From the NCBI GenBank assembly GCA_009699605.1, contig WLNW01000017.1, forward strand, positions 1 to 33,419: 33,419 bases of DNA, written 5' to 3'. Position numbers and translations under genes: made by a program. Shown in pieces: positions 2,041 through 28,317 of this stretch (position 1 is the first letter of the stretch; each line of letters begins with the position of its first letter). Source of the DNA: Actinomycetota bacterium. GTDB taxonomy: Bacteria > Actinomycetota > Acidimicrobiia > Acidimicrobiales > WLNW01. The notes beneath the pieces were generated by a model. That model was not told where the DNA came from. It made no database searches and saw nothing but the letters and a program-made list of their open reading frames with translations.

Positions 2041-3300
2041 ATGGAACTTCAGTTCGATGATCTCGAAAGCAAGAAGGGGTTCTTCGTCACGAAGAAGCCC
2101 GACAAACCGACCTTCCTGCCCGAGCCCGAGCGTCGGCGCCGTCGCTTCACCTTGATCTCGGTCGACGACCACCTCGTAGAACCGCCGAACATGTTCACCG
2201 GTCGCGTCCCGGGCCGCTTCGCGGAGCTTGCCCCGCGCGTCGAGCTCGACGAGAAAGGCATGGAGTACTGGCTGTACGACGGCAAGCGCCAGTACAAGGT
2301 CGGTCTCAACGCGGTCGTCGGGCGGCCCATCGAGGAGCGAAGCTTCGAACCGGCGCGCTTCGATGAGATGCGGCTCGGCGCGTACGACATTGCGGCGCGC
2401 GTCCACGACATGGACCTCAACGGTGTCTACGCGTCGTTGAACTTCCCGTCGTCGCTCGCTGGCTTTGCGGGGCAGCGCTACCAGCTGGGCATCAGTGATC
2501 CGGGACTTGCCCTGGCCGTCGTGCAGGCGGCGAACGATTGGCACGCCGAGGAGTGGGCGGGTCGCTTCCCGGATCGCATCATCCCGTTGCAGCTCCCGTG
2601 GTTGCTCGACCCCGAGGTCGGCGCGGCCGAGATCCGTCGCAACGCGGCGCGCGGCTTCCGCGCCGTCACGTTCCCCGAACTGCCCGAGCGCCTCGGCCTC
2701 CCCTCGTTGCATACCGGCTACTGGGACCCGTTCATGGCCGCCTGCGAGGAGACCGAGACGGTCATCTGCCTGCACGTCGGGTCATCGTCGAGCGCGCCGA
2801 TGACATCGTCGGACGCGCCATCCGACACGATCGGGGTGCTGTTCTTCGGGTGGGCGATGTTCGCGGGCGTCGACTGGCTCTACTCGAAAATCCCGGTCCG
2901 GTTCCCGAAGATCCGCATCTGCTTGTCCGAAGGTGGCATGGGGTGGGTGGCCGGACTGCTCGATCGTCTCGATCACGTCAGCCGCTACCAACAGGTCTAC
3001 GGAACCTGGGAGGGCATCGAGCTCACGCCGCGCGAAACGATGCAACGCAACTTCTGGTTCTGCGCCATCGACGATCCGACCGGTCTGCAGCAGCGTCATC
3101 AGGTGGGTGTCGAGCACGTACTGCTCGAATCGGACTACCCGCACCAAGATGGCACCTGGCCCGACACCCAAGAACTGCTGCACGACCAGATCGGTTCGTT
3201 CCCCGCCGACGACATTCGCAAGCTCACGTGGGAGAACGCGTCGAAGCTGTTCTCGTTCCCCGTTCCCGCCGCCGTACAAAACGATCCCGAGGCCTACTGA
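2041..3300 (+). CDS. Amidohydrolase-2 family metal-dependent hydrolase/decarboxylase
   Basis: TIM-barrel enzyme of 419 residues in the amidohydrolase-2 family (PF04909), which includes ACMSD, gamma-resorcylate decarboxylase and other C-C or C-N bond-cleaving enzymes. Visible metal-site elements are D-D-H in LISVDDHLVEP (about residues 41-43), the His of CLHVGSSS, and the Asp in ESDYPH. The family landmarks NDWHAEEW, PDRIIPLQLP and TWENASKLF are also present. A 35-residue Lys/Arg-rich leader precedes the barrel and is unusual relative to the paralogues at 16452 and 22258. ATG 2041 has GAGGGGAG about 10 nt upstream. It is the first gene of a four-gene operon with an aldolase and two SDRs. The substrate is unknown. 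Confidence 0.85.
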   Translation: MELQFDDLESKKGFFVTKKPDKPTFLPEPERRRRRFTLISVDDHLVEPPNMFTGRVPGRFAELAPRVELDEKGMEYWLYDGKRQYKVGLNAVVGRPIEERSFEPARFDEMRLGAYDIAARVHDMDLNGVYASLNFPSSLAGFAGQRYQLGISDPGLALAVVQAANDWHAEEWAGRFPDRIIPLQLPWLLDPEVGAAEIRRNAARGFRAVTFPELPERLGLPSLHTGYWDPFMAACEETETVICLHVGSSSSAPMTSSDAPSDTIGVLFFGWAMFAGVDWLYSKIPVRFPKIRICLSEGGMGWVAGLLDRLDHVSRYQQVYGTWEGIELTPRETMQRNFWFCAIDDPTGLQQRHQVGVEHVLLESDYPHQDGTWPDTQELLHDQIGSFPADDIRKLTWENASKLFSFPVPAAVQNDPEAY

Positions 3301-7842: not shown

Positions 7843-7893
7843 CCCGGCTGGCAGATGATGCTCGATTGCGCGCTCCACGGCCCGCAGCCGTCA

Positions 7894-7899
7894 TACTTT
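7894..7899 (+). promoter_or_regulatory. Leaderless -10 element of bioA
   Basis: TACTTT followed by 5 nt and the ATG of bioA at 7905, with no Shine-Dalgarno sequence upstream. Transcription would start at or within a base of the ATG. The 74 bp between the two divergent starts contain no palindrome resembling a BioQ or BirA box that I can see. Confidence 0.5.
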
Positions 7900-7904
7900 C
7901 GCCG

Positions 7905-9212
7905 ATGTACACCGACCCGATACCGCACGAGCACGCTCTCGTGCGGCGCGACCGCGCCGTCGTGTGGCATCCCTACGCCGCGATGCCAATGGCCGAGCCT
8001 GCGATCGAGGTGGTCTCCGCATCCGGGGTGCGCCTCACCCTTGGCGACGGCCGCGAGGTGATCGACGCGATGTCGTCGTGGTGGGCGGCCATCCACGGCT
8101 ACCGCCACCCGGTGCTCGATGCGGCGATCTGCGCCCAGCTCGAGCAGATGGCGCACGTGATGTTCGGCGGGCTCACGCATCGTCCGGCAGTCGAGCTCGC
8201 CGAGTTGCTCGTCGAGATCACACCACCGGGGCTCGAGCACGTCTTCTTTGCTGACTCGGGCTCGGTCGCCGTGGAGGTCGCGGTGAAGATGGCGCTGCAG
8301 TACTGGGCTGGCATGGGACGACCACGACGACACCGTCTTCTCACCGTGCGCGGCGGCTATCACGGCGACACGCTCGCCGCGATGTCGGTGTGCGACCCCG
8401 ATACCGGTATGCACCATCTGTTCGCCGATGTGGTGCCGACCCAGTTGTTCGCGCCGATTCCTTCGCCCCGCTTCGACGAGCCCTTCGCTGACGACCACGT
8501 CGAAGAGCTCGCAGCCCTCCTCCGCAAGAACCATGAGGAGATAGCGGCGGTGATCATCGAGCCGATCGTGCAAGGAGCGGGTGGCATGCGGTTCTATGCG
8601 CCGGGTTACCTCCGCGCGGTTCGGGCGCTTTGCGACGAGTACGACGTGCTCCTCATCGCCGACGAGATCGCCACGGGTTTCGGCCGTACGGGAGCGCTGT
8701 TCGCGTGCGAGCACAGCGGCGTGTCTCCCGACATCATGTGCGTCGGCAAGGCGCTCACCGGAGGCTACCTGTCGATGGCCGCCACGTTGTGCACGTCGAT
8801 GGTCGCTGCGGGGGTGAGTCGTGCCGAGCCAGGTGCGCTGATGCACGGCCCGACCTTCATGGCGAACCCGTTGGCGTGCGCGGTGTCGCTGGCCAGCGTC
8901 CGTCTGCTTTGCTCGCGGCCGTGGCGCCACGAGGTCGGTCGCATCGAGCTCGGGCTGACACGTGGGCTCGCGCCGGCGCTCGGTGCGGCGGGGGTGCGCG
9001 ACGTGCGGGTGCTCGGCGCCATCGGCGTGATCGAGATGGACGAACCGATCTCGATGCGTGACTCGCAGCGGGTTGCGCTCGACCATGGTGTGTGGATCCG
9101 ACCCTTCGGCCGGTTGCTGTACACGATGCCGCCGTTCGTCAGCACCGATGAGGATGTCGCGGCGATCTGCGGTGCGATGGTCGCGGTGCTCGAGCATGCG
9201 AGGTGTGCGTGA
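7905..9212 (+). CDS. bioA: Adenosylmethionine-8-amino-7-oxononanoate aminotransferase
   Basis: PLP-dependent class III aminotransferase of 435 residues catalysing KAPA to DAPA with S-adenosylmethionine as amino donor, the third step of biotin ring assembly. Signatures of BioA are WHPYAAM near the N-terminus, [22 protein letters not shown], the PLP segment [38 protein letters not shown], the Schiff-base Lys282 in VGKALTGGY, and [12 protein letters not shown]. Length is normal for the family. First gene of the bioAFD operon; its stop overlaps the bioF start by 4 nt. Translation probably starts from a leaderless transcript. Confidence 0.95.
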
Positions 9213-10348
9213 GCGACCCGAGCTGGACCGCGTGGGTCGCGGGGCAACTCGAGCAGGTGCGCCAGGCCGGGCAATGGCGAGTCACCCGGGCCTTCGACGC
9301 CGCCGGGCCGGCGGGCCATCTCACAACACCGGGGGGCACGAGCGAAGGTTTCGATGTCGTGTCGTTCGCGTCCAACGACTACCTCGGTCTGTCGATGCAC
9401 CCCGCTGTCATTTCCGCTGCGCACGAGGCGATCGACCGTTGGGGTACCGGTTCGACGGCGTCGCGATTGATCGTGGGCACACGCCCCTGTCACGAGGAGC
9501 TCGAGTGCGAGCTCGCCGAATGGAAGCACGCGCCGCGAGCTCTGGTCTTCTCGAGTGGCTACGCCGCGAACGTGGGCGTGCTGGCGTCGCTAGGCGGCCC
9601 CGACGTCACCGTCTTCAGCGACGAGCTGAACCACGCCTCGATCATCGACGGTTGCCGGCTCGGTCGATCGAAGGTTGTCGTGTACCGCCACAACGACATC
9701 GAACAACTCGACGCGTTGCTCACTGCGACACCGGGCCGCAAGCTCGTCGTGACCGACGTCGTCTTTTCGATGGACGGCGATGTGGTACTGCTCGACACAC
9801 TCGCGTCGTCGTGTGTGCGCCACGGGGCGCTGCTCGTGCTCGACGAGGCGCACGCGGTGCTCGGCCCCGAGGTACCGGCGCTCGACGGCCTCGAGGTGGT
9901 GCGCATCGGCACGCTGTCGAAGACCCTCGGTTCGTTGGGTGGCTGGGTGGTCGCGTCCAGCTCGATCATCGATCTGCTCGTGAACCGCGCCAGGTCGTTC
10001 ATCTTCACCACGGCGTTGACGCCGGCGGACGCGTCCGCCGGCCTCGCCGCGATTCGCGTCGTGCGTTCGCCGGACGGAGCGCGGCTCGTCGCGCGGCTCC
10101 GCGACACGATCGATCGTGTCCGTAACGGGCATCCCTCGCCGATCATCCCGGTCGTGCTGGGCGACGAAGGCGCGGCGCTGCGGGCCGCGGACGCGCTGCT
10201 CGCGCGGGGCGTGTTCGTGCCGGCGATCCGGCCCCCGACGGTGCCGGCGGGGACGTCGCGGCTGCGCATCGCGCTGTCGGCCGCGCACACCGACGCGATG
10301 GTCTCGCAGTTGCTCGATGCGCTGGCCGCGCAAGGTCTCGCGCCATGA
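9209..10348 (+). CDS. bioF: 8-amino-7-oxononanoate synthase
   Basis: PLP-dependent alpha-oxoamine synthase of 379 residues that condenses pimeloyl-ACP/CoA with alanine to KAPA, the step before BioA. Visible motifs are [22 protein letters not shown], the HxxLE-like [49 protein letters not shown] and the PLP lysine K238 in [14 protein letters not shown] 9209 overlaps the bioA stop as GTGA; the upstream in-frame GTG at 9203 is less likely. Full length, all catalytic motifs intact. Confidence 0.93.
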
Positions 10349-10992
10349 GACCCCGGCACGTGGTGGCGGTGGTCGGCACGGGTACCGATGTCGGCAAGAC
10401 CTGGGTTTCGTGTGCGCTTGCCCTAGCCGCACGCCGGCGCGGTGCGAACGTACAGGTCCGCAAGCCCGTGCAATCCTTTGCCCTGAATGCCCAGGGGATC
10501 AGTGGCCTCGACACGGACGCCGTGCTCCTCGCCGCAGCCACGGGTGAGGAGCTCGACGCCGTGTGCCCCGCGCATCGTTGGTACGGGCAGGCCATGGCTC
10601 CACCCATGGCCTGCGATGCGCTCGAGCTCCCGTCGTTCACTGCCGCCGACCTCCTGAGCGAGCTCCGATGGCAAGGCATTGCCGACCTCGGTCTCGTCGA
10701 GACCGCAGGGGGCGTCCGTTCGCCGATGACTCACGACACGGACTCGGCCGGATTCGTGCGCGCGCTCGCGCCGAATGCCGTCGTGCTCGTGGCCGATGCC
10801 GGTCTCGGCACGATCAACGCGGTCCGCTCGGCGTGTGACGCGCTCGACGGCTTGGTGTTCACGATCCTGCTCAATCGCTACGACCCTGCTGACGACCTCC
10901 ATCGGCGAAATCGTGAGTGGCTCGCAGTGCGCGACGGTCTCCCGGTGTTCGTCGATCTGCACGATGCGGCCCTGCTCGGTACTGCGGCGTGA
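10345..10992 (+). CDS. bioD: ATP-dependent dethiobiotin synthetase
   Basis: A 215-residue P-loop enzyme converting DAPA, CO2 and ATP to dethiobiotin. It has the BioD Walker A GTGTDVGKT at residues 11-19, the RKPVQSF segment following it, the ETAGGVRSP motif that replaces the usual E-x-A-G-G-x-x-x-P, and the VVLVADAGLGTINA strand. The ATG overlaps the bioF stop (ATGA). It closes the operon; bioB, needed for the last step, is not in the window. Confidence 0.92.
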   Translation: MRPRHVVAVVGTGTDVGKTWVSCALALAARRRGANVQVRKPVQSFALNAQGISGLDTDAVLLAAATGEELDAVCPAHRWYGQAMAPPMACDALELPSFTAADLLSELRWQGIADLGLVETAGGVRSPMTHDTDSAGFVRALAPNAVVLVADAGLGTINAVRSACDALDGLVFTILLNRYDPADDLHRRNREWLAVRDGLPVFVDLHDAALLGTAA

Positions 10993-11063
10993 TCGAGCCG
11001 CAGGTCGCCAGAACTCGCGGTGCACCGGGTTGTACCATCGACTGACCCCGGGGAGGACCATCC

Positions 11064-11477
11064 ATGGCCAAGCTTCGCCACCTTGCGATCGCGACCGATG
11101 ATCCGGATCGCACCGCGCAGTTCTACATCGACACGTTCGAGTTCACGAAGGTGCGAAGCGCCGAAGGCATCTGGGGCCACGGCCACATCCTCTCGGATGG
11201 CACCATCAACCTGGCGATCCTGAAGTTCATCACCGACGAGGCCGCCGGGATCGAGCGCGGTGTCGGCTATCGAGGGCTGCACCACATCGGCTTCGAGGTC
11301 GACGACGTCGACGCGGTGGCCACACGGGTCGAGTTGGCCGGGTGTCGCGCTCGGGAGGACATTGACGCGGCGTTGGGCATTCCCCACGATGGTCCCATCA
11401 AGGGAGAATTCAAATATGAAGGCCCCGACGGCGTGGTGTTCGACCTGAGCCAGCCCGGGGTCTGGCAGGTGGCCTGA
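11064..11477 (+). CDS. VOC (glyoxalase/bleomycin resistance) family protein
   Basis: A 137-residue protein with two beta-alpha-beta-beta-beta units of the vicinal oxygen chelate fold. A metal-site His is at the start (LRHLAIAT), a second near the middle (HHIGFEVDD), and the last strand ends GPDGVVFDLSQPG with an Asp-Leu in place of the usual E-L ligand. Members are glyoxalases, epimerases or dioxygenases. ATG 11064 has GGGGAGGA 6 nt upstream and a TACCAT -10 at 11033-11038, so it has its own promoter after bioD. The methylmalonyl-CoA epimerase reading is not supported. Substrate unknown. Confidence 0.75.
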   Translation: MAKLRHLAIATDDPDRTAQFYIDTFEFTKVRSAEGIWGHGHILSDGTINLAILKFITDEAAGIERGVGYRGLHHIGFEVDDVDAVATRVELAGCRAREDIDAALGIPHDGPIKGEFKYEGPDGVVFDLSQPGVWQVA

Positions 11478-11499
11478 CGGCCGACGAACCCTGCGTTAG

Positions 11500-12085: not shown

Positions 12086-12136
12086 CATGATCACCACTAC
12101 CGTCGCTGTAACGCCGATACAGAGCGGAGGGTGCTC

Positions 12137-13408
12137 GTGGAACGGGACGCCATCGTGGTCGACGACCAAGGTGATCAGCGCTACATCGTGATCTCGGCCG
12201 ATGGCCACGCCGGAGGAAGCATCGGCGGCTACCGGCCCTACCTCGATCGGGAGTGGCTCGACGAGTTTGACGCGTGGGCCGCGACCTATGAGATCCCCTA
12301 TGAGGACCTCCTCGGCGACAAGGGCGAGCGCAACTGGGACTCGGCGCGGCGCCGTAGCGACCTCGAGCTTGATGGTCAGGTGGCCGAGGTCATCTTTCCC
12401 AACACCGTCCCACCGTTCTTTCCGAAGGTCGCGCTCACGAGTCAGCCCCCTGCCCTGACCGCGGGAGACATGGATCGTCGATGGGCCGGGCTTCAGGCGC
12501 ACAATCGTTGGTTGGCCGACTTCTGCGCCGACGCTCCTGGCCGCCGGGCCGGGGTTGCGCAGATCACGCTGTACGACATCGAGGCTTCGGTGGCCGAGGT
12601 GCGGCGCACCCACGCCGCAGGGCTGCGCGGCGGGGTCCTGCTGCCAGGCACACCGCCAGGCCTCGGTCTGCCCCAGCTCTTCGACCCGTGCTACGAGCCC
12701 CTGTGGCAGGTGTGTGCTGAGCTCGGCGTCCCCGTAAACCACCACACCGGTAGCGCATCCCCGCCCATGGGGGCCACGGACGTCGACGCCGTGGTGTTCC
12801 TGCTCGAGGTCTCCTGGTGGGCCCATCGCGCATTGACACATCTCCTCGTCGGCGGCGCGCTCGATCGCCATCCCGACCTGCAACTGGTGTTCACCGAGCA
12901 GGGCACGGCGTGGGTGCCCGAGGAGTTGGCCAAGCTCGACTACTTCTTCGATCGCATGCGCAGCGCCGATGGTTCGCAGGAACAGGTGTGGGGTCGGGCG
13001 GTCGTCGAGCGGCTGTCGCTCAAGCCCAGCGAGTACTGGTCCCGCCAGTGCCACGTCGGCGCCAGCTTCATCCGCCCACCCGAGGTCGGGTTGCGCGACC
13101 TGGTCGGCGTCGATCGCATCATGTGGGGCAGCGACTACCCGCACAAGGAGTCGAGTCACCCGTTCTCGCACGAGGCCATGCGTGCGGCCTTCGCGGGCGT
13201 GCCCCACGACGAGACCGCGCGGATGCTCGGCGGGAACGCTGCTGCGCTCTACGGCTTCGATCTCGACGCTCTGGCCCCGCTGGCCGCCGTGTTCGGTCCT
13301 CGCGTCCTGGCGATCGACCAGCCGCTCGCTCCGGGTGAGCTGCCCATCGCCGCTGCGAAGTGTCCTGCGTTCGTGGGTCAGCAGTTCGCCGAGGCATTGC
13401 CCGGCTGA
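12137..13408 (+). CDS. Amidohydrolase-2 family protein, divergent subgroup
   Basis: A 423-residue amidohydrolase-2 TIM-barrel enzyme. Metal-site elements are D-G-H in VISADGHAGG (residues near 20), the histidines in VNHHTGSASPP and the Asp of WGSDYPHKES. It differs from the paralogues at 2041, 16452 and 22258: the opening is SADGHAGG instead of SVDDHxxEP, and a VIFPNTVPPFFP segment precedes the long helix region. GTG 12137 is preferred over GTG 12131 because GGAGG ends at 12130, 6 nt before it. It heads a probable operon with the SDR at 13479 and the dehydrogenase at 14414. Likely a hydrolase or decarboxylase; substrate unknown. Confidence 0.8.
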   Translation: MERDAIVVDDQGDQRYIVISADGHAGGSIGGYRPYLDREWLDEFDAWAATYEIPYEDLLGDKGERNWDSARRRSDLELDGQVAEVIFPNTVPPFFPKVALTSQPPALTAGDMDRRWAGLQAHNRWLADFCADAPGRRAGVAQITLYDIEASVAEVRRTHAAGLRGGVLLPGTPPGLGLPQLFDPCYEPLWQVCAELGVPVNHHTGSASPPMGATDVDAVVFLLEVSWWAHRALTHLLVGGALDRHPDLQLVFTEQGTAWVPEELAKLDYFFDRMRSADGSQEQVWGRAVVERLSLKPSEYWSRQCHVGASFIRPPEVGLRDLVGVDRIMWGSDYPHKESSHPFSHEAMRAAFAGVPHDETARMLGGNAAALYGFDLDALAPLAAVFGPRVLAIDQPLAPGELPIAAAKCPAFVGQQFAEALPG

Positions 13409-16451: not shown

Positions 16452-17726
16452 TTGCAGGCCGACGATCTCATCCTCATCAGCGTCGACGATCACATCGCCG
16501 AACCGTCCACCATGTTCGACGCGCATGTTCCTGCCCGTTACAAGGCCCAGGCGCCTCGGGTCCTCACCGACGAGCGCGGCATCCAGCAGTGGTGGTACGG
16601 CGACGTCAAGGGTCGCAATCTCGGCCTCAATGCCGTGGCCGGCAAACCCCGCGAGATGTTCAACGTCGACGCGAGCCGCTACGACGAAATGCGTCCGGGC
16701 TGCTTCGACGTAGACGAGCGCGTGCGCGACATGAACGCGGGTGGTCAGCTCGCGGGACTCAACTTCCCCAACTTCACCGGCTTCTCCGGGCAGGTGTTGA
16801 ACCAGGGCCCCGATCTCGATGTCAACGAGGTCATGATCAAGGCCTACAACGACTGGCACGTCGACGAGTGGTGCGGTGCGCATCCCGGTCGCTTCATCCC
16901 GTGCGGCGTGCTGCCGTTGTTCGATGTCGAAAAAGCTGCGGCCGAGGTGCGGCGGCTTGCGGCCAAGGGCTGCCACGCGGTCACCTTCTCCGAGAACCCC
17001 GAAGCGCTCAACATGCCGTCGATCCACTCGGACCAGTGGGACCCCCTCTTCGCCGCGTGCGTCGAGACGGAGACCGTGTTGTGCTGTCACCTCGGCTCGT
17101 CGTCCCGAAGCCCGATGTCGGCCGTCGACGCGCCGGCCGGTGTCAACATGACCACATCGTCGGCGGCCACGATCTACACGCTCGTCGATCTCGTGTGGGC
17201 CACCTTCTGGGAGCGTTTCCCCACGCTGAAGTTCTCGCTGACCGAAGGTGACATCGGCTGGATCCCGTACTTCCTGTGGCGGGCCGAACACGTCAACGAT
17301 CGCCACGGCGGGTGGACCAAGCACGACTTCACCAAGACCGGTGGCCCCATACAGATCTTCCGCGACCACATCCTCGTGTGCTTCATCAAGGAGAACATCG
17401 GCGCGAAGCTCATCGAGGAGTTCAACGTCGAGAACGTCTGCTGGGAGAGCGACTACCCGCACTCCGACAGCACCTGGCCGTACGGACCCGAGGAGCTGCT
17501 GAAGTCGCTCGACGGCTTCAGCGACGCGAACATCAACAAGATCTCGCACGAGAACGCGATGAAGCATTACTCGTTTGATCCGTTCGTGCATCGTTCCAAA
17601 GAGAAGTGCACCGCCGCAGCGCTGCGCGCCGAGTCGCCCGAAGTCGACACCGTGACGCACGCGGGGCGGCCCGCGGATGAGCGCGACCTCGAGTCGTGGC
17701 GCGCGATCACCGGCACGCGCCGCTGA
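16452..17726 (+). CDS. Amidohydrolase-2 family metal-dependent hydrolase/decarboxylase
   Basis: A 424-residue paralogue of the enzymes at 2041 and 22258. Metal-site elements: D-D-H in LISVDDHIAEP (near residues 11-13), His in LCCHLGSSS, Asp in ESDYPHSDSTWP. Shared landmarks include VPARYKAQAPR, AYNDWHVDEWCGAHPGRFIP, VTFSENPEALNMPSIHSDQWDP and EGDIGWIPYFLWRAEH. It starts with TTG at 16452, supported by AGGAG 6 nt upstream and by the alignment of its N-terminus with the paralogues. The last 35 residues after the FDPF segment are an unshared polar tail. Divergently transcribed from an IclR regulator, which probably controls it. Substrate unknown. Confidence 0.85.
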   Translation: MQADDLILISVDDHIAEPSTMFDAHVPARYKAQAPRVLTDERGIQQWWYGDVKGRNLGLNAVAGKPREMFNVDASRYDEMRPGCFDVDERVRDMNAGGQLAGLNFPNFTGFSGQVLNQGPDLDVNEVMIKAYNDWHVDEWCGAHPGRFIPCGVLPLFDVEKAAAEVRRLAAKGCHAVTFSENPEALNMPSIHSDQWDPLFAACVETETVLCCHLGSSSRSPMSAVDAPAGVNMTTSSAATIYTLVDLVWATFWERFPTLKFSLTEGDIGWIPYFLWRAEHVNDRHGGWTKHDFTKTGGPIQIFRDHILVCFIKENIGAKLIEEFNVENVCWESDYPHSDSTWPYGPEELLKSLDGFSDANINKISHENAMKHYSFDPFVHRSKEKCTAAALRAESPEVDTVTHAGRPADERDLESWRAITGTRR

Positions 17727-22181: not shown

Positions 22182-22257
22182 AACTCCGTTCGGACCGGCA
22201 GCTACGATTCTTCCATCGCGCGCCGTGACGGGTCGGCGCGAGTCGGAGGGGGACTCG

Positions 22258-23469
22258 ATGCTCACTGGTGAACGGTCGCTTGATTGGATGGTCTCGGTCG
22301 ATGATCACGTGCTCGAGCCGCCCACCGTGTGGCAGGACCGCGTGCCCGCTCGCTACCGCGACGTCGCTCCTCGTCTGGTCACCCTCGATAACGGTGAGTT
22401 CTGGGCGTACGAGGATCGGCTCGTGCCTACGGGTGGTCTGGCCGCCTGCGCCGGCAAGCCCCGCGAAACGTTTTTTACCCCGAACGCGATCACCTATGCC
22501 GACATGTTGCCCGGGTGCTACGACGTCAAGGCCCGCGTCGAGGACATGGACACCGGCAACATCCTCGCGTCGCTGTGCTTCCCGTCGTTCCCGCGCTTCT
22601 GCGGGCAGATCTTCCACGAGGCCAAGGACAAGGAGCTCGCGCTCCTCTGCGTGCAGGCCTACAACGACTGGATGATCGACGAGTGGTGCGCCTCCGCGCC
22701 CGGCCGCTTCATCCCGCTCATCATCGTGCCGTTGTGGGACCCTCCCTCGATTGCGCGCGAGATAGAACGCTGCGCCGCCAAAGGTGTCACCGCGGTCGCG
22801 TTCTCCGAGAACCCCGAGCCGCTCGGGCTGCCCACCATCCACGATCTTGGTCGCTACTGGGATCCGCTCATGCGGGCCGCCGAGGAGACGGGCATGGTGT
22901 TGTGCATGCACGTCGGCTCGTCGTCGCAGCTCCCGGCCATCTGTCACGACGCGCCACCGCTCGCCAACATCTCGTACGGCACGATCCGCACCGCGGGCAG
23001 CATGCTGTCGTGGATCTACGGCGATGCGTTCGTCAAGTTCCCCAAGCTCAAGGTGGCGTTCTCCGAAGGCAACATCGGCTGGATGTCGTACTTCCTCGAG
23101 CGAGCCGAGCAGTGTCTCGACAAACAGCGGCATTGGCTCACGCAGGGCATCGAACTGCACGGGTACGACAACAAGTACGACAAAGGCACGGCGGCCGACG
23201 TGGCCGACATCGACATCCGCGCCATCTTTCGCGACCACATCTACGGGTGCTTCCTCGAGGACCGAACCGGCATGCGGGTACTCGACATGATCGGCGAGGA
23301 CAACGTCATGTGCGAGTCCGACTATCCGCACGCTGACACGACATGGCCCCACTCGGTGAAGGTCGCTCGCGACTGCATGCAGGGCCTGTCCGATGAGACC
23401 CAGTACAAGCTCCTGCGCGGCAACGCCGAGAAGTTGTTCCGCTTCACCCCCGCGCCGCTACCTCACTGA
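22258..23469 (+). CDS. Amidohydrolase-2 family metal-dependent hydrolase/decarboxylase
   Basis: A 403-residue paralogue of 2041 and 16452. Metal-site elements: D-D-H in VSVDDHVLEPP (near residue 14), His in LCMHVGSSS, Asp in ESDYPHADTTWP. Shared segments are VPARYRDVAPR, ACAGKPRETFF, AYNDWMIDEWCASAPGRFIP, VAFSENPEPLGLPT and EGNIGWMSYFLERAE. ATG 22258 follows GGAGGGGGA; a TACGAT -10 candidate lies at 22203-22208, 22 nt downstream of the large inverted repeat. It converges on the alpha/beta hydrolase gene 9 nt away. Not adjacent to an SDR, so it seems monocistronic. Confidence 0.85.
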   Translation: MLTGERSLDWMVSVDDHVLEPPTVWQDRVPARYRDVAPRLVTLDNGEFWAYEDRLVPTGGLAACAGKPRETFFTPNAITYADMLPGCYDVKARVEDMDTGNILASLCFPSFPRFCGQIFHEAKDKELALLCVQAYNDWMIDEWCASAPGRFIPLIIVPLWDPPSIAREIERCAAKGVTAVAFSENPEPLGLPTIHDLGRYWDPLMRAAEETGMVLCMHVGSSSQLPAICHDAPPLANISYGTIRTAGSMLSWIYGDAFVKFPKLKVAFSEGNIGWMSYFLERAEQCLDKQRHWLTQGIELHGYDNKYDKGTAADVADIDIRAIFRDHIYGCFLEDRTGMRVLDMIGEDNVMCESDYPHADTTWPHSVKVARDCMQGLSDETQYKLLRGNAEKLFRFTPAPLPH

Positions 23470-23478: not shown

Positions 23479-24186
23479 TCAGGCGTGCCGACCCACTTCG
23501 TTGATGATGTCCGCGAGGGCGCCGGGTTGGGACAACATCACGTCGTGATCCGCGTCGATCTCGTGGTGGCGGGTGGGGGTGAGCTGCGCGGCAAGCATCG
23601 TGGCGAGCGCCTCTGGCACTGCGCCGTCGCGTGTGCAGCGCACGGTGATCGCGGGGATCTGCGAGTCGTAGTGCGGAACGGTGGCGAGGAAGAGCCCGAT
23701 TGGTTCGGGAACGCAGCGGGCGTACATCGCATCGAAGGCGGCGTCATCGAGATCGCCTGCGAACAGCGCACGTGCCGCCTCGCGTGATGCGAGGGGCTGC
23801 ACGCCGGCTTGGTCGTCGATTACTGGTGCCTCGTCGCCGAAGAACAGCCGGTTCGTCGACATGCCGACGGGCGGGGTGAGCGCGGCAACGTACACCAGCG
23901 ACGTCACGCGGTCGGGCGCCTGCGCTGCGGTCGCGGTGAGCGTGAGCCCACCCATCGAGTGGCCGACGAGTACAAACCGATCGAAGCCCGCAGCGTCGGC
24001 ATCCTCGAGCACCGCCGCCACGCAGCGCGCCAACGTGACCGGCTCGGTGTCGAGTGGCCGCCGTCCGCGGCCGGGCAGATCGACGGCGACCGACGGCAGG
24101 TCGAGCAACGGTTGTACGAGCTCCCAGCACCACGCGCCGTGCATTCCGCCGTGGACGAGCACGATGCCGTCGGGTCGTGAGGTCAC
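23479..24186 (-). CDS. Alpha/beta hydrolase, esterase type
   Basis: A 235-residue alpha/beta hydrolase resembling plant-type methylesterases and hydroxynitrile lyases: VLVHGGMHGAWCWELVQPLL near the N-terminus, VDLPGRG, the nucleophile elbow GHSMGG, and the C-terminal His in EIDADHDVMLSQP; the acid residue is not pinpointed. It would hydrolyse an ester or thioester. Start GTG 24186 is 14 nt after the end of the upstream amidohydrolase and follows GAAGGCAGG; the longer frame to 24411 is shadow. Last gene of a four-gene minus-strand operon with the amidohydrolase, an SDR and a dioxygenase. Confidence 0.83.
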   Translation of the reverse strand: MTSRPDGIVLVHGGMHGAWCWELVQPLLDLPSVAVDLPGRGRRPLDTEPVTLARCVAAVLEDADAAGFDRFVLVGHSMGGLTLTATAAQAPDRVTSLVYVAALTPPVGMSTNRLFFGDEAPVIDDQAGVQPLASREAARALFAGDLDDAAFDAMYARCVPEPIGLFLATVPHYDSQIPAITVRCTRDGAVPEALATMLAAQLTPTRHHEIDADHDVMLSQPGALADIINEVGRHA

Positions 24187-24199
24187 GTGATGCCTGCCT

Positions 24200-25408
24200 T
24201 CAGTCGGGGAGGAGCCAGGCGGCGTTCTCGACGAACACTTTGCGCAGCACATCAGAGCCGAGGCGCGCCAGCTTTCCGCTGATGTCGCCCATGGGGTCAC
24301 GGCCGCCTTCGGGGTGAGGGTAGTCGCTCGAGTAGCAGTAGATCTCGGGCATCGAGAACTGGTCGATGTAGACATCAACCGGCTCGATGTCGAACAGCGA
24401 AACGCGAACATTGCGCCGGATGTAGTCGCTCGGCTGCATCGTGATGGGCAACGCCCCCTCGGTGTTGTCCAGCGAGAACTTGCGTGAGTTCGCGTGCCAG
24501 AAGTCCAGGTTCTGCGCGAGCGGACCCACCCACTGACCGAGCACCTCGCACGCGCCGAAGCGCAAACGCGGGTGACGCTCGAACACCCCGCCGAGCACCA
24601 TGGTGGCGAGGAAGTTCTGTACGGGAAGGTGCAGCGTGGACAACGTCCACGGATCCATCTGGAACTCCTCGCCGGCCTTCCACCCTTGGAACGCAGGAGC
24701 GTCGCGCCATGCAGCGGTTTTCAAGAAGTCAAGGTCGGCACCGACGTGGGCCAATACCGGCACGTCGGCTTCGGCGAGCAAGGACCACATCGGATCGAGA
24801 TCGGGATGTGCAGGGGAGCAGCCTCCCGGAAGGGAGGCGCTGGGCAGCCACACCGCACGCACGCCGCCGGTGACGAGTCGGGTGACCTGCGCCTGCAGTT
24901 CGCCGACGGTGGGAGCGATCGCGACGCCGACTGCGCGGATCCGGTCGGAGCGTCGAGCGACGCGGATACAGAAGTCGTTGTACGCCTCGATCAGCGACAA
25001 CGCGTACGCGCGGCGGTCGCCCCGGATGCTGCGGAACATGTCGGGGTACTGCTCGGCCCGGTAGTAGAAGCTCACGGCGTAGAGCCCGATGCTGCCCGGG
25101 AACATCAGCTGACGTTCGACACCGAGGAAGTCCATGACCTCGAGTCGACGATCGAGATCGAACGCGCCTGGGGCTTGTGCGAATTTCGTGTTCCAGACCG
25201 AATGGGCGGTGATCTCGGTGGTGTCGGCGGCGACGAACCTGCGGATCGGCATCATCGAGGCTTCGAATGCATCGACGAATGGCCGCACGACCTCGCCGAA
25301 CTGCTCCTCCCAATGGTTGACCGGCGTGTACTCGTGCGTGTCGGCGTCGAGCATGCGGCCGATGAACGGGTGCAGAGCCGCGGGAACGGCGTCGTAGGTG
25401 GTGGTCAC
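24200..25408 (-). CDS. Amidohydrolase-2 family protein, divergent subgroup
   Basis: A 402-residue amidohydrolase-2 enzyme. Metal-site elements: D-T-H in MLDADTHEYTP (near residues 22-24), His in VLAHVGADLDF, Asp in YSSDYPHPEGG. It diverges from the SVDDH group: the first metal motif is DADTHEY, and LLAEADVPVLAHVG replaces the CxHxGSSS motif. The GTG start overlaps the stop of the SDR by 4 nt, so the two are coupled. Its partners (dioxygenase, SDR, esterase) differ from those of the other amidohydrolases, suggesting a different substrate. Confidence 0.82.
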   Translation of the reverse strand: MTTTYDAVPAALHPFIGRMLDADTHEYTPVNHWEEQFGEVVRPFVDAFEASMMPIRRFVAADTTEITAHSVWNTKFAQAPGAFDLDRRLEVMDFLGVERQLMFPGSIGLYAVSFYYRAEQYPDMFRSIRGDRRAYALSLIEAYNDFCIRVARRSDRIRAVGVAIAPTVGELQAQVTRLVTGGVRAVWLPSASLPGGCSPAHPDLDPMWSLLAEADVPVLAHVGADLDFLKTAAWRDAPAFQGWKAGEEFQMDPWTLSTLHLPVQNFLATMVLGGVFERHPRLRFGACEVLGQWVGPLAQNLDFWHANSRKFSLDNTEGALPITMQPSDYIRRNVRVSLFDIEPVDVYIDQFSMPEIYCYSSDYPHPEGGRDPMGDISGKLARLGSDVLRKVFVENAAWLLPD

Positions 25409-26379
25409 GTGGAGTGCTCCCTGTGGGGCGGCACTGCCGCGGCCATCAACACGGGCTCGGTCAGGTCGTAGCCGAGCACCGCGGCCGCGATGGCCCCGGC
25501 GTCGGCTGCGTCGATGGGATAGGTGTAGTCCGTTTCGCTCAGCACCTCGGGCAGGTGTTCGAGGACGTCTTCGGGAGTCAGGTTCGTGCTCAGGTAGCCG
25601 AGCGTCTCCGCCATCACGGTGCGCGCCACCCTTCCGCCGCCCACCACCAACATCTCGCCCGTGACCGAACACGTCGAATGGACGAGCGCTGCGACGACCG
25701 GCGACACGAGTTCGGGCCGCATGGTGGCGAGGAACCAGTCGCGGAACTCGGAGTGGGCCATGTTTTCGGCCATGCGTGTGGCCCCTGCCGGCTCGAGGAG
25801 GTTCACCGTGATGCCGAATGCTTCGCCCTCTCGTGCGAGACCGCGGGTGAACCCGATGAAGGAGGCCTTTGCGGTGCTGTAGGGAATGCTTCCGGCGAGT
25901 CCGTAGATGGCGGTGGATGCCGCGAGCACGATGCGACCGTGCTGTTGACGCTGCATGACCGGCCATGCCTCTTGCACAAGCGCATACGCGGCGCGTGTGT
26001 TGATCGCGAGCAGCTTGTCGAGGCGCTCGAGCGACTCGTTCTCGAATGCCATGCCACCGAGCGTGAACCCGGCGTTGTGGACGAGCACGTCGATGCGACC
26101 GTACGCATCGATGGTGGCTCGCACTGCGCCACGCGCTCCGCCTTCATCGGTGAGATCTTCGACGTAGGGGACTGCGTCACCGCCCAGTCTGCGGATCGCG
26201 TCGACGGTCTCGGCGGCCGGCCCAGGATCGTGGCCTGTGCCGAACAGATCGGTCCCGGTGTCGCTCACCACGACTCGCGCGCCGCGACTTGCGAGCAGCA
26301 TCGCGTGCGCACGACCCATGCCGCGGCCACCGCCGGTGACCAGCGCAACGCGGCCGTCGAAGCGCAGCTCGTCGATCAT
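25405..26379 (-). CDS. SDR family oxidoreductase with C-terminal extension
   Basis: A 324-residue SDR: cofactor loop VTGGGRGMGR (from residue 14), VVVSDTG, VHNAG, the Ser in LAASTAIYG, and the YSTAK catalytic pair. The core ends near VVGGGRV and is followed by about 70 residues (GYLSTNLTPEDVLEHLPEVL...) similar to the tail of hydroxyacyl-CoA-dehydrogenase-like SDRs of actinobacteria. ATG 26379 overlaps the TGA of the dioxygenase gene (ATGA), and its own stop overlaps the amidohydrolase start. Expected to oxidise a hydroxyl formed or released by the neighbouring enzymes. Confidence 0.85.
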   Translation of the reverse strand: MIDELRFDGRVALVTGGGRGMGRAHAMLLASRGARVVVSDTGTDLFGTGHDPGPAAETVDAIRRLGGDAVPYVEDLTDEGGARGAVRATIDAYGRIDVLVHNAGFTLGGMAFENESLERLDKLLAINTRAAYALVQEAWPVMQRQQHGRIVLAASTAIYGLAGSIPYSTAKASFIGFTRGLAREGEAFGITVNLLEPAGATRMAENMAHSEFRDWFLATMRPELVSPVVAALVHSTCSVTGEMLVVGGGRVARTVMAETLGYLSTNLTPEDVLEHLPEVLSETDYTYPIDAADAGAIAAAVLGYDLTEPVLMAAAVPPHREHST

Positions 26380-27332
26380 TCGGCTAGGCCGCCGTGTTGG
26401 CGCATGTATCGCCGCTGGCCGCCGGGTACGGCGCCGCGGCGATGCTGCAGCCCGATGTTGTCCCAGAGGACGAGGTCTCCGGTCGACCACTGGTGGACGA
26501 GCCGAGGCGCGGTGGCGTCGATGTGGGTCCGCAGTTCGGCGAGGACGCGATCGCTTTCGTCGCGGTTCATACCCGCGATGCGGTCGGCGAAGTCGTTCAC
26601 GTAGATGGTTCGGCGCCCGGTGTTCGGATGTGGGGTGAATACCGGGTGCGTGGCATCGGCGAGGCGCGGCATGTCGGCCGGGCTCGGCAGTCGCGGGTCG
26701 AAGTAGATCACCTGGCGGTTCTCGAGCAGTGTGCGCAAAGAGGTCGGGAGCGTTTCGTAAGCCGTGTAGAGGTCGCGGTACTCGGTGGGCGTGACGCCGG
26801 GCTCGACGTCGAGCGCTTCGAACACGCTCACGACCTTGCGCATCGGCCGATGACTCTGGTCGTTGTGCCAGACAAGTTCGCTGATGCCATCGGTGCCTGG
26901 CGCGTACAGTGTGCTGCCGGTGTTGTCGGCACTGCGATCCATGTACTGCTTGCTCTCGATGGCCATCTGGCTGGCGGGACCGCCCTGGTTGCGATGCCCC
27001 GAGTAGTGCGCGGCGCCGTCCTCGGTCTCGAGCACGAGGCGACCGAATTGACGAAGGAATGCATCGAGTTGGACCTCCGACGGGCACGGCTGGCCGCGCA
27101 GCACGAGCAGCAGGTTTCGACGCAGTGCAAGGGTCAGCAGGCGCACCACCTCGGGATCGTGCACGTCCCAGCGCACCCCCGTGACCTCGATGCCGAACGA
27201 AGTGTCGGGCAGCGTCGCGAATTGCAGACCGGTCGACAGCGCAACATCGAGGCCGAGGCTGGGGGAGAACGACGATGGGGTGGTTGCCTCGGTGGTCGTC
27301 GCCTTGGTGGTCGTGGTCGCGGCGATCGACAT
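26376..27332 (-). CDS. TauD/TfdA-type Fe(II)/2-oxoglutarate dioxygenase
   Basis: A 318-residue dioxygenase of the TauD/TfdA family, which hydroxylates a substrate next to a sulfonate, ether or carboxyl group and releases succinate and CO2. The iron triad is H156-x-D158 (VWHNDQSH) and H297 in LQHRRGAVPGGQRRYMRQ, where R308 should bind 2-oxoglutarate. The first 25 residues are an unusual Thr-rich tract (ATTTTKATTTEATT) with no counterpart in the family. ATG 27332 has GGGGAG 6 nt upstream; a TACCAT -10 lies on the minus strand at 27378-27373. First gene of the TauD-SDR-amidohydrolase-hydrolase operon. Confidence 0.85.
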   Translation of the reverse strand: MSIAATTTTKATTTEATTPSSFSPSLGLDVALSTGLQFATLPDTSFGIEVTGVRWDVHDPEVVRLLTLALRRNLLLVLRGQPCPSEVQLDAFLRQFGRLVLETEDGAAHYSGHRNQGGPASQMAIESKQYMDRSADNTGSTLYAPGTDGISELVWHNDQSHRPMRKVVSVFEALDVEPGVTPTEYRDLYTAYETLPTSLRTLLENRQVIYFDPRLPSPADMPRLADATHPVFTPHPNTGRRTIYVNDFADRIAGMNRDESDRVLAELRTHIDATAPRLVHQWSTGDLVLWDNIGLQHRRGAVPGGQRRYMRQHGGLAE

Positions 27333-27388
27333 TGGCATCTCCCCATCAGGCGTGCGCTCGGCCCCTTCGTCGATGGTAGACGATGCCG

Positions 27389-27394
27389 TACGAT
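27389..27394 (+). promoter_or_regulatory. Leaderless -10 element
   Basis: TACGAT is followed by 6 nt and GTG 27401. No Shine-Dalgarno sequence is present. This supports a start at 27401 rather than the ATG at 27383, which would lie upstream of the promoter hexamer. Confidence 0.45.
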
Positions 27395-27400
27395 CCGCTG

Positions 27401-27904
27401 GTGGCCCGCCCGACACCGTTGACGAGCGCCGACGAGTTGGTCCTGCCCGCCGGTTCCACGCTCGACCCGGCGATGGTGTTCGCTGTCGCGACCCGCACCA
27501 ACGTCGCTCAGGCCACACTCGGTACCCAGCTCCTGGGCGTGGGCGCGCAGCACGCCACGATACGCGTCCCGTGGCGAGCCGATCTCGGGGCCGGCGGTGC
27601 CACCGCTCGGTGGGCCGACTTCGTGGTCCCCATGCTTGTTGATCACGCGTGCTCGCTCGCCGTCCTCATGGTGCTCGACGACGCCGCTCGTTGGGCCGGA
27701 TCGCTCGACCTGCGGGTGGACTATCGCCGATCGCTCGACGCGTCACCGTTCCTCGTGGCGCACGCGGTGTGCGACGAACGCGTGGGCGCCGTGATGCGTG
27801 TGCGTGCCATGGTCTCGGCCGACCCAGACGACGACGATCCAATGGCGGTGGGGCTCTGCACGATCGCAGTAGTCGCTGGCCCGACTGGTGAGTCCCGACC
27901 GTGA
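27401..27904 (+). CDS. Hotdog-fold (PaaI/thioesterase-like) protein
   Basis: A 167-residue protein with hotdog-fold features: GAGGATARWADFVVPMLVDHACSLAVL resembles the long central helix of thioesterases, followed by strands LDLRVDYRRSL, FLVAHAVCDERVGAVMRVRAMV and MAVGLCTIAVVAG. The conserved HGG/Asp of PaaI is not clear. GTG 27401 is chosen from the leaderless promoter; ATG 27383 is an alternative. It overlaps the next gene by 4 nt (GTGA), and the next one is also a hotdog protein, so the two may form a heterodimeric thioesterase or dehydratase. Function inferred only. Confidence 0.65.
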   Translation: MARPTPLTSADELVLPAGSTLDPAMVFAVATRTNVAQATLGTQLLGVGAQHATIRVPWRADLGAGGATARWADFVVPMLVDHACSLAVLMVLDDAARWAGSLDLRVDYRRSLDASPFLVAHAVCDERVGAVMRVRAMVSADPDDDDPMAVGLCTIAVVAGPTGESRP

Positions 27905-28317
27905 CGCAACCTGAGGCACTGTTGCTCGAAAGGCTTGCGGTGGTGCTGGCCACGTCGCCCGCAGTCCCGTACCTCGGTCTGCGGGGCGAGATCGTCGACG
28001 CTCGTGTCGTGGTCACCCTGCCTGGGCTCGAACAACACGTGGGCGACGTGAGCCAGCGTTCGGTGCACGGTGGTGTACTCGCGGCGTTCCTCGAGACCGC
28101 TGCGCTCGCAATGCTGCAGGCGCACGGTTCCGGCGACCCCGTTAAGGCGCTGTCGTTCACGTCGGCGTTCGTCCGGCCGGCGCAGGTCGTCGACACCTAT
28201 GCGGCGGTCGATGTCGTGCGCATCGGTCGTCGCATTGCTCACGTGCGCGTCGGCGCGTGGCAGGGCGACGTCGACAACTTTGTGGCGACGGGCCAAGGGA
28301 CCTTCTCCCTCCGATAA
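27901..28317 (+). CDS. PaaI-family hotdog thioesterase
   Basis: A 138-residue hotdog thioesterase. The PaaI signature is clear: SVHGGVLAAFLETAALAML (His-Gly-Gly loop followed by the central helix), then VKALSFTSAFVRPAQ and RIGRRIAHVRVGAWQGD strands and a C-terminal FVATGQGTF. It should hydrolyse acyl- or aryl-CoA thioesters. GTG 27901 overlaps the upstream hotdog gene. The role is likely release of an acid from a CoA ester in one of the neighbouring catabolic routes, but it could equally be housekeeping. Confidence 0.75.
   Translation: MTQPEALLLERLAVVLATSPAVPYLGLRGEIVDARVVVTLPGLEQHVGDVSQRSVHGGVLAAFLETAALAMLQAHGSGDPVKALSFTSAFVRPAQVVDTYAAVDVVRIGRRIAHVRVGAWQGDVDNFVATGQGTFSLR

Follow-up and report, generated by a model that had tools for sequence, protein, structure and literature searches.

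A putative oxidation module combining a TauD-type dioxygenase, a dehydrogenase and a PF04909 protein in an acidimicrobial genome

The genome of an Actinomycetota bacterium of the order Acidimicrobiales (assembly GCA_009699605.1) carries on contig WLNW01000017.1 a minus-strand operon in which, as read from the sequence, a gene for a TauD-type dioxygenase is followed by genes for a short-chain dehydrogenase/reductase (SDR), a PF04909 "amidohydrolase" and an alpha/beta hydrolase. What can such a combination of enzymes do, and is it maintained as a unit in other organisms? We examined these questions in the 33,419-nt stretch of that contig analysed here (the window), in the remainder of the genome, referred to as the host, and in related genomes. 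A preliminary description of the locus had proposed a four-gene unit, unmatched by any named pathway, whose products would hydroxylate, oxidise, cleave and release a compound in succession. Open reading frame (ORF) coordinates bear out the compact layout given there, with the SDR ATG inside the TauD TGA (ATGA), the GTG of the PF04909 gene inside the SDR TGA (GTGA) and 13 nt between the PF04909 stop and the alpha/beta hydrolase start, and Pfam assigns a family to each of the four products (Table 1). The proposal of an operon of oxidative enzymes also holds, part of it (three genes) being conserved elsewhere. The analysis nevertheless points to a different assignment for the third product, which is probably an oxygenase, and indicates that the TauD-SDR-oxygenase set recurring in other bacteria is probably an uncharacterised oxidation module.

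Metal ligands and fold of the PF04909 protein

The PF04909 family spans mononuclear enzymes as well as "amidohydrolase-related dinuclear oxygenases", and its members are listed as carboxylases, hydratases, hydrolases and monooxygenases (PMC10811679). The dinuclear oxygenases follow the ligand pattern D-x-H, H, E, D-x-x-H (PMC10127204, PMC7782822, PMC10401708), as in LynB7 (D11/H13/H197/E252/D320/H323; PMC10127204) and AibH2 (D25/H27/H211/E265/D337/H340; PMC7782822), whereas the mononuclear AibH1 has the first five ligands only, without the last His (PMC7782822). On alignment, the PF04909 operon protein, with residues counted from its GTG start, presents all six dinuclear ligands (D23, H25, H221, E288, D362 and H365), and E367, two residues past H365, takes the place of PtmU3 E313 (PMC7782822). 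The absence of a His at D-x-x-H that marks mononuclear members of the family, illustrated by the decarboxylase 4icm, which has a Tyr in that position, therefore does not extend to the operon protein, which keeps H365. Because of this ligand set we regard the protein as probably an amidohydrolase-related dinuclear oxygenase and not an amidohydrolase. For the same reason the amidohydrolase "cleave" step of the preliminary description is left unsupported. With the PF04909 protein read as an oxygenase beside TauD, the operon would hold two O2-dependent hydroxylases.

The six ligands and E367 are invariant in all 35 aligned sequences (the operon protein and 34 relatives), an invariance that is partly built in for D362, H365 and E367, because most of the relatives came from a genome scan using the pattern D[YF]PH[PV]EGG, which is part of the metal site. 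This alignment leaves out one locus with a stop codon in the stretch (L047), one split locus (L030) and more distant loci. Among host PF04909 paralogues, which were collected without the motif, 56 of 59 distinct genes (60 rows) carry the six ligands, two having no N-terminal part and one showing another pattern; a further host Pfam match, on C113, was not matched by the profile. The 80 external loci yielded 102 rows, of which 95 have all six ligands and 7 have gaps at some of them.

Comparison with solved structures points in the same direction. A search with the single protein returned 4dzi, PtmU3, 8sm7 (an SfbO relative described in PMC10811679) and DitZ as top matches, and a profile of the 35 sequences matched PtmU3 at 1.6e-33, 4dzi at 4.5e-31, DitZ at 2.3e-21, AibH2 at 5.6e-18 and SfbO at 1.6e-16, no SfbO relative being weaker than 1e-15; the highest-ranked decarboxylase (3e-13) and AibH1 (4e-12) fell below every known oxygenase. 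The AlphaFold model is confident (predicted local distance difference test, pLDDT, 91.1; predicted template modelling score, pTM, 0.91) and, with the Pfam match, indicates the (beta/alpha)8 fold. Foldseek ranks PtmU3 first for this model, and VIA-align gave Z-scores of 32.7 for 4dzi, 32.3 for PtmU3 (324 residues, root-mean-square deviation 3.2), and 27.7-29.4 for DitZ, AibH2, SfbO and the SfbO relatives; no decarboxylase exceeded 26.6. Since the mononuclear AibH1 chains score 28.7-29.1, level with the oxygenases, the fold alone cannot tell one metal from two. The protein solved as 4dzi, Mycobacterium avium map2389c, is itself labelled an "amidohydrolase"; it lies as near the model as PtmU3 and has D-x-x-H in the alignment, and may therefore also be an oxygenase.

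These comparisons bear on the path originally envisaged, in which TauD hydroxylates, the SDR oxidises, a mononuclear PF04909 hydrolase or decarboxylase performs the cleavage and the esterase frees the product. The family does include hydrolases, hydratases and decarboxylases, and the structural scores of the decarboxylases and AibH1 leave the fold undecided, yet the six ligands together with the PtmU3-type acid, the retention of the last His that is missing in AibH1 and replaced in 4icm, the placing of all known oxygenases above decarboxylases and AibH1 by profile, and the lack of conservation of the esterase with the set (see below) make this path quite unlikely.

Among characterised systems, the 2-aminoisobutyrate monooxygenase AibH1H2-AibG/F and SfbO with its relatives have the six ligands and the fold in common with the operon protein, but are accompanied by an adjacent small Rieske protein (PMC10811679, PMC10401708), which the operon does not have, and the AibH1-type partner of the AibH1H2 system has no counterpart identified for the operon. 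The diiron oxidative decarboxylases LynB7 and BarH also display D-x-H, H, E, D-x-x-H; they differ at the seventh position, which is Asp in LynB7 and BarH and Glu in the operon protein and PtmU3, and LynB7, unlike the operon protein, comes from a polyketide synthase-nonribosomal peptide synthetase cluster.

Recurrence of the TauD, SDR and PF04909 genes

The distribution of the oxygenase and of TauD was assessed by scanning genome contigs for the best 80 of 525 oxygenase relatives, a procedure that may miss orthologues, and by searching the class (394 genomes), the family of Sphingomonas montanisoli (397 genomes, oxygenase and TauD) and the phylum (396 genomes, TauD), with scores computed in each genome for the 4-5 best first-look candidates. 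Within the order, 58 further genomes gave no oxygenase match at E 1e-60, and two of the 394 other genomes of the class gave a match at 1e-50 (40% identical). Close relatives (68-73% identity) were found in five alphaproteobacterial genomes among those best 80, namely S. montanisoli, three Novosphingobium metagenome-assembled genomes (MAGs) and one MAG titled Alphaproteobacteria, and in a sixth genome, G751, from the family of S. montanisoli. TauD (44-51%), the SDR (57-63%) and the oxygenase co-occur in six of these six genomes. TauD was detected in all five genomes found first, unlinked cases included, and the SDR in all six, with neither present in two control genomes; TauD was also absent from both of two plasmids carrying more distant PF04909 relatives. 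Across the S. montanisoli family the oxygenase and TauD both occur in the same two genomes, and among the 396 genomes of the phylum the host alone harbors this TauD. No orthologue of the esterase was found in the six genomes sharing the other three genes, five of them giving matches of 26-35%, never beside the module, and the sixth none. Conservation extends to three genes, those for TauD, SDR and PF04909 protein, with the esterase added locally, so that the four-gene unit first described does not recur as such.

As for gene order, a neighbourhood search of the kind suggested in the preliminary description recovered the TauD-SDR-PF04909 run once elsewhere (L026/L137; TauD 47%, SDR 64% and oxygenase 73% by tblastn), where an SDR-like stretch in two overlapping frames, read from the ORFs, separates SDR from oxygenase. 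In S. montanisoli (L027) TauD (48%) lies directly before the oxygenase (72%), with the SDR (58%) about 3.7 kb further on, and L029 presents SDR (59%) and oxygenase (68%). TauD and SDR adjoin each other in the window, in L137 (from the genome of L026), in L116 and in L118; the oxygenase adjoins TauD in L119 and L136, and it adjoins the SDR in the window and in L029. Coding-frame matches of at least 40% identity in the compared neighbourhoods were confined to the three window genes; one SDR frame and one other frame matched at 36-37%.

The catalytic residues are retained along with the genes. In seven aligned sequences TauD H156-x-D158, H297 and R308 are invariant, which we take to be, as known from TauD, the metal triad and the 2-oxoglutarate-binding Arg; this HxD...H triad, the C-terminal Arg and PF02668 are common to TfdA/AtsK-type dioxygenases. 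The operon TauD forms a separate subfamily, with 26-31% identity to the best 10 of 378 plasmid records versus 44-51% within the module. Its odd Thr-rich N-terminus, remarked on earlier, is indeed encoded (TTTTKATTTEATT), but none of six orthologues shows a comparable Thr run, so the tail is apparently a low-complexity extension peculiar to this protein. The AlphaFold model of this protein (pLDDT 58.5) was not used. The SDR contains TGxxxGxG and the Ser-Tyr-x-x-x-Lys signature, with S155, Y167 and K171 invariant in seven aligned sequences.

Phylogenetic placement adds a historical dimension. In a quick tree the oxygenase groups in six with alphaproteobacterial sequences (Shimodaira-Hasegawa-like approximate likelihood ratio test support 100), and because a genome of an Actinomycetota class thereby joins alphaproteobacteria, transfer of the oxygenase between phyla is likely. 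An alternative reading is that loosely related catabolic genes have been brought together by operon shuffling, co-presence reflecting transfer of a genomic island and not one pathway. Linkage does vary between genomes, the cross-phylum grouping suggests horizontal transfer, and of 19 host TauD genes 4 lie within 2 kb of a PF04909 gene against 1.8 expected, which is no significant excess (P 0.10, window pair included). However, the three genes are retained on separate contigs, beyond what an island alone explains, and TauD and oxygenase share the same two genomes out of 397, though these are close relatives; we consider shuffling highly unlikely as the full account.

Several further features were observed around the orthologues. 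The oxygenase orthologue at L030:5089-6271 matches in two pieces, through a frameshift or an assembly error. A luciferase-like flavin monooxygenase gene, assigned by Pfam on L028 and with counterparts 51-87% identical on L029 and L030, adjoins the oxygenase (L028:6973-7899, L030:4058-5014) or lies one gene away (L029:1678-2655). Near the TauD-SDR pair of L118, a 593-aa ORF (9700-11478) combines a TauD domain with a class-I glutamine amidotransferase domain.

Substrate class and proposed reactions

We favor, with moderate confidence, a catabolic oxidation module in which two different O2-dependent hydroxylases and a dehydrogenase would act on a substrate carried, for at least part of the route, as a coenzyme A (CoA) thioester. 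Neighbours of the module genes, the character of the SDR and the substrates of PtmU3 together favor a CoA-linked substrate. The S. montanisoli cluster includes an acyl-CoA ligase above the FadD3-family cut-off (681 vs 657 bits), whose G751 counterpart is 96% identical; two family III CoA-transferases stand beside TauD-SDR in L118, and the end of one beside TauD in L117; a thiolase-like gene lies near module genes in L029; and a thioesterase-like gene lies across the divergent region in the window (Table 1). The nearest relatives of the SDR are hydroxyacyl-CoA dehydrogenases, first among them the (3R)-hydroxyacyl-CoA dehydrogenase of multifunctional enzyme 2 (MFE-2): phmmer against solved structures gave 2et6 at E 9.7e-68 and 1zbq at 6.7e-48, the similarity extending over residues 7-285 and including the Ser-Tyr-Lys residues, although the operon SDR stands alone, without the MFE-2 hydratase domain. 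PtmU3 hydroxylates C-5 of diterpenoid-CoA intermediates (PMC10127204) and is called a beta-hydroxylase accepting CoA-ligated substrates (PMC7782822).

A free small molecule such as an ether, sulfonate, amine or acid, entering through TauD and meeting the dinuclear oxygenase as a later intermediate, would be the main substitute for a CoA thioester. AibH2 hydroxylates 2-aminoisobutyrate (PMC7782822), SfbO oxidises small sulfonate buffers, which are not its established native substrate (PMC10811679), and TauD relatives of known structure include the 2,4-dichlorophenoxyacetate (2,4-D) and phenoxypropionate dioxygenases. We judge such a substrate unlikely, given the hydroxyacyl-CoA dehydrogenases nearest to the SDR, the acyl-CoA ligase, CoA-transferases and thiolase-like gene beside module genes elsewhere, and an oxygenase nearer PtmU3 than AibH2 or SfbO by both profile and fold.

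Several observations, in addition to the partly built-in invariance and the AibH1 scores given above, weigh against the CoA-linked module. PtmU3 and the operon protein are only about 22% identical, and no Rieske gene was found on the operon contig (C79) in a PF00355 search of the host genome (8 matches). The C-5 position that PtmU3 hydroxylates is reportedly the carbon beta to the thioester, but published uses of "beta" could refer to the face. A family scan of a subset of the window ORFs, ending 2 kb short of the end of the window, detected no acyl-CoA ligase, CoA-transferase or thiolase. In the three Novosphingobium genomes the genes are split over two contigs. The three proteins of G426 are 95-99% identical to those of G751, and Novosphingobium supplies three of the genomes, so the six genomes amount to about three lineages plus the window. 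Finally, 47% oxygenase relatives reside on plasmids pLA3 and pJE1 near acyl-CoA metabolism genes, without this TauD.

For the CoA-linked module a plausible sequence of reactions, with order and substrate inferred, can be outlined. A diiron or Mn/Fe centre in the PF04909 enzyme would place a hydroxyl group at a C-H position, probably beta to the thioester, and the MFE-2-like SDR would convert the new 3-hydroxyacyl-CoA into the 3-oxo compound; with these as consecutive steps, TauD would act elsewhere, by hydroxylation or O-dealkylation at a second position. The alpha/beta hydrolase, a local addition whose matches in the Protein Data Bank are 8hfw, SABP2 and MKS1, might take off an ester, thioester or 3-oxo acyl group at the end. 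Such a route would stand in for dehydrogenation and hydration in beta-oxidation with substrates that do not permit them, for instance branched or alicyclic ones. Extending this idea, we tentatively raise the possibility of a horizontally shared, O2-dependent bypass of beta-oxidation (PtmU3-like beta-hydroxylation of an acyl-CoA that resists dehydrogenation and hydration, SDR oxidation, a dedicated TauD at a second site); the host lineage would then have multiplied this type of oxygenase to at least 56 copies in a 3.4-Mb genome, a main catabolic toolkit comparable to P450 sets in other organisms.

The platensimycin/platencin (ptm) system is a close parallel. The ptm pathway also uses members of the 2-oxoglutarate oxygenase (PtmO3/PtmO6) and SDR families. 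PtmU3 is a TIM-barrel diiron monooxygenase that belongs to PF04909, as the operon protein does, and has CoA-linked diterpenoid substrates; PtmO6 is a C7 hydroxylase. The ptm genes, however, belong to Streptomyces secondary metabolism, whereas the neighbours of the module elsewhere look catabolic and the operon SDR is MFE-2-like. The Pfam scan of a subset of the window ORFs yielded no terpene synthase, no search aimed at diterpene synthases being made. In G426 and G751 the module neighbours include an AtuA-family protein, a Coq4-like protein and, by ORF reading, a transporter of the major facilitator superfamily type; the first two are a hint of terpenoid-like substrates. In S. montanisoli the AtuA-family and Coq4-like genes (L027:4424-7057) immediately precede TauD-oxygenase. 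As stated in the preliminary description, no named pathway of this composition was found, in our case among the matches listed from the open-access literature searched, outside which most subscription papers lie; searches there also returned nothing on plasmid pJE1, unrelated papers for DitZ among the matches listed, and, by title, nothing on catabolism in S. montanisoli among the matches listed.

Genomic setting of the operon

Table 1. Positions of the operon genes and nearby features in the window
Feature	Coordinates	Strand	Evidence
TauD/TfdA-type Fe(II)/2-oxoglutarate dioxygenase, first gene	27332..26376	minus	ATG start; PF02668 125.5 bits
SDR, like (3R)-hydroxyacyl-CoA dehydrogenase region of multifunctional enzyme 2 / 17beta-hydroxysteroid dehydrogenase 4 (17beta-HSD4)	26379..25405	minus	adh_short 125.5 bits
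PF04909 protein, candidate PtmU3-like dinuclear oxygenase	25408..24200	minus	GTG start; Amidohydro_2 47.0 bits (weak; cut-off 26.4)
Alpha/beta hydrolase, esterase/hydroxynitrile lyase/methylketone synthase group	24186..23479	minus	GTG start; Abhydrolase_6 PF12697 95.5 bits
Divergent intergenic region, 50 bp	27333..27382		sequence
Hotdog acyl-CoA thioesterase-like gene, across divergent region	27901..28317	+	4HBT_3 45.3 bits, 4HBT 43.8 bits
Second PF04909 gene, convergent with operon	22225..23469	+	same six ligands, Asp at seventh position

The 50-bp divergent region is likely the operon promoter. By its position, the hotdog gene is a possible partner of the operon; the intervening divergent gene (27383-27904) matches no family with confidence and is therefore not labelled a thioesterase. 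The convergent PF04909 gene is best treated as a neighbour of the operon. Elsewhere in the window (7866-10989), class III and class I/II aminotransferase genes and a gene for an AAA_26 protein form what, from inferred names, resembles a bioA-, bioF-, bioD-like trio.

A mis-binned sphingomonad contig was considered as the source of the operon and rejected, its tetranucleotide correlation with the rest of its own genome being 0.826 (own chunks at least 0.751, n=16; alphaproteobacterial chunks at most 0.736, n=28). This match in composition disfavors recent contamination and is compatible with an older transfer.

The host is rich in PF04909 genes, with five in the window (2041-3297, 12131-13405, 16452-17723, 22225-23469 and 24200-25408) and 112 first-look candidates in all, whereas none of 58 relatives has more than 52; up to 33 matches per genome were scored, a number reached by both the host and G046. 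One of the eight host Rieske matches is a short frame (135 aa), located on C243, a contig without any fetched PF04909 gene; from these positions no dedicated AibG-type ferredoxins are seen beside host PF04909 genes. The closest paralogue of the operon protein (G000:C205:6861-8060, L010/L021; 46%) lies, by ORF reading, between a GntR/FadR-like regulator gene and an opposite-strand FAD (flavin adenine dinucleotide) monooxygenase-like gene.

PF04909 proteins are commonly annotated as amidohydrolases, and if the operon protein and its 55 look-alikes in the host are oxygenases, this annotation masks a large oxidative capacity of the lineage. The conserved TauD-SDR-oxygenase set in a named species, S. 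montanisoli, provides an entry point to the catabolic role of such enzymes.

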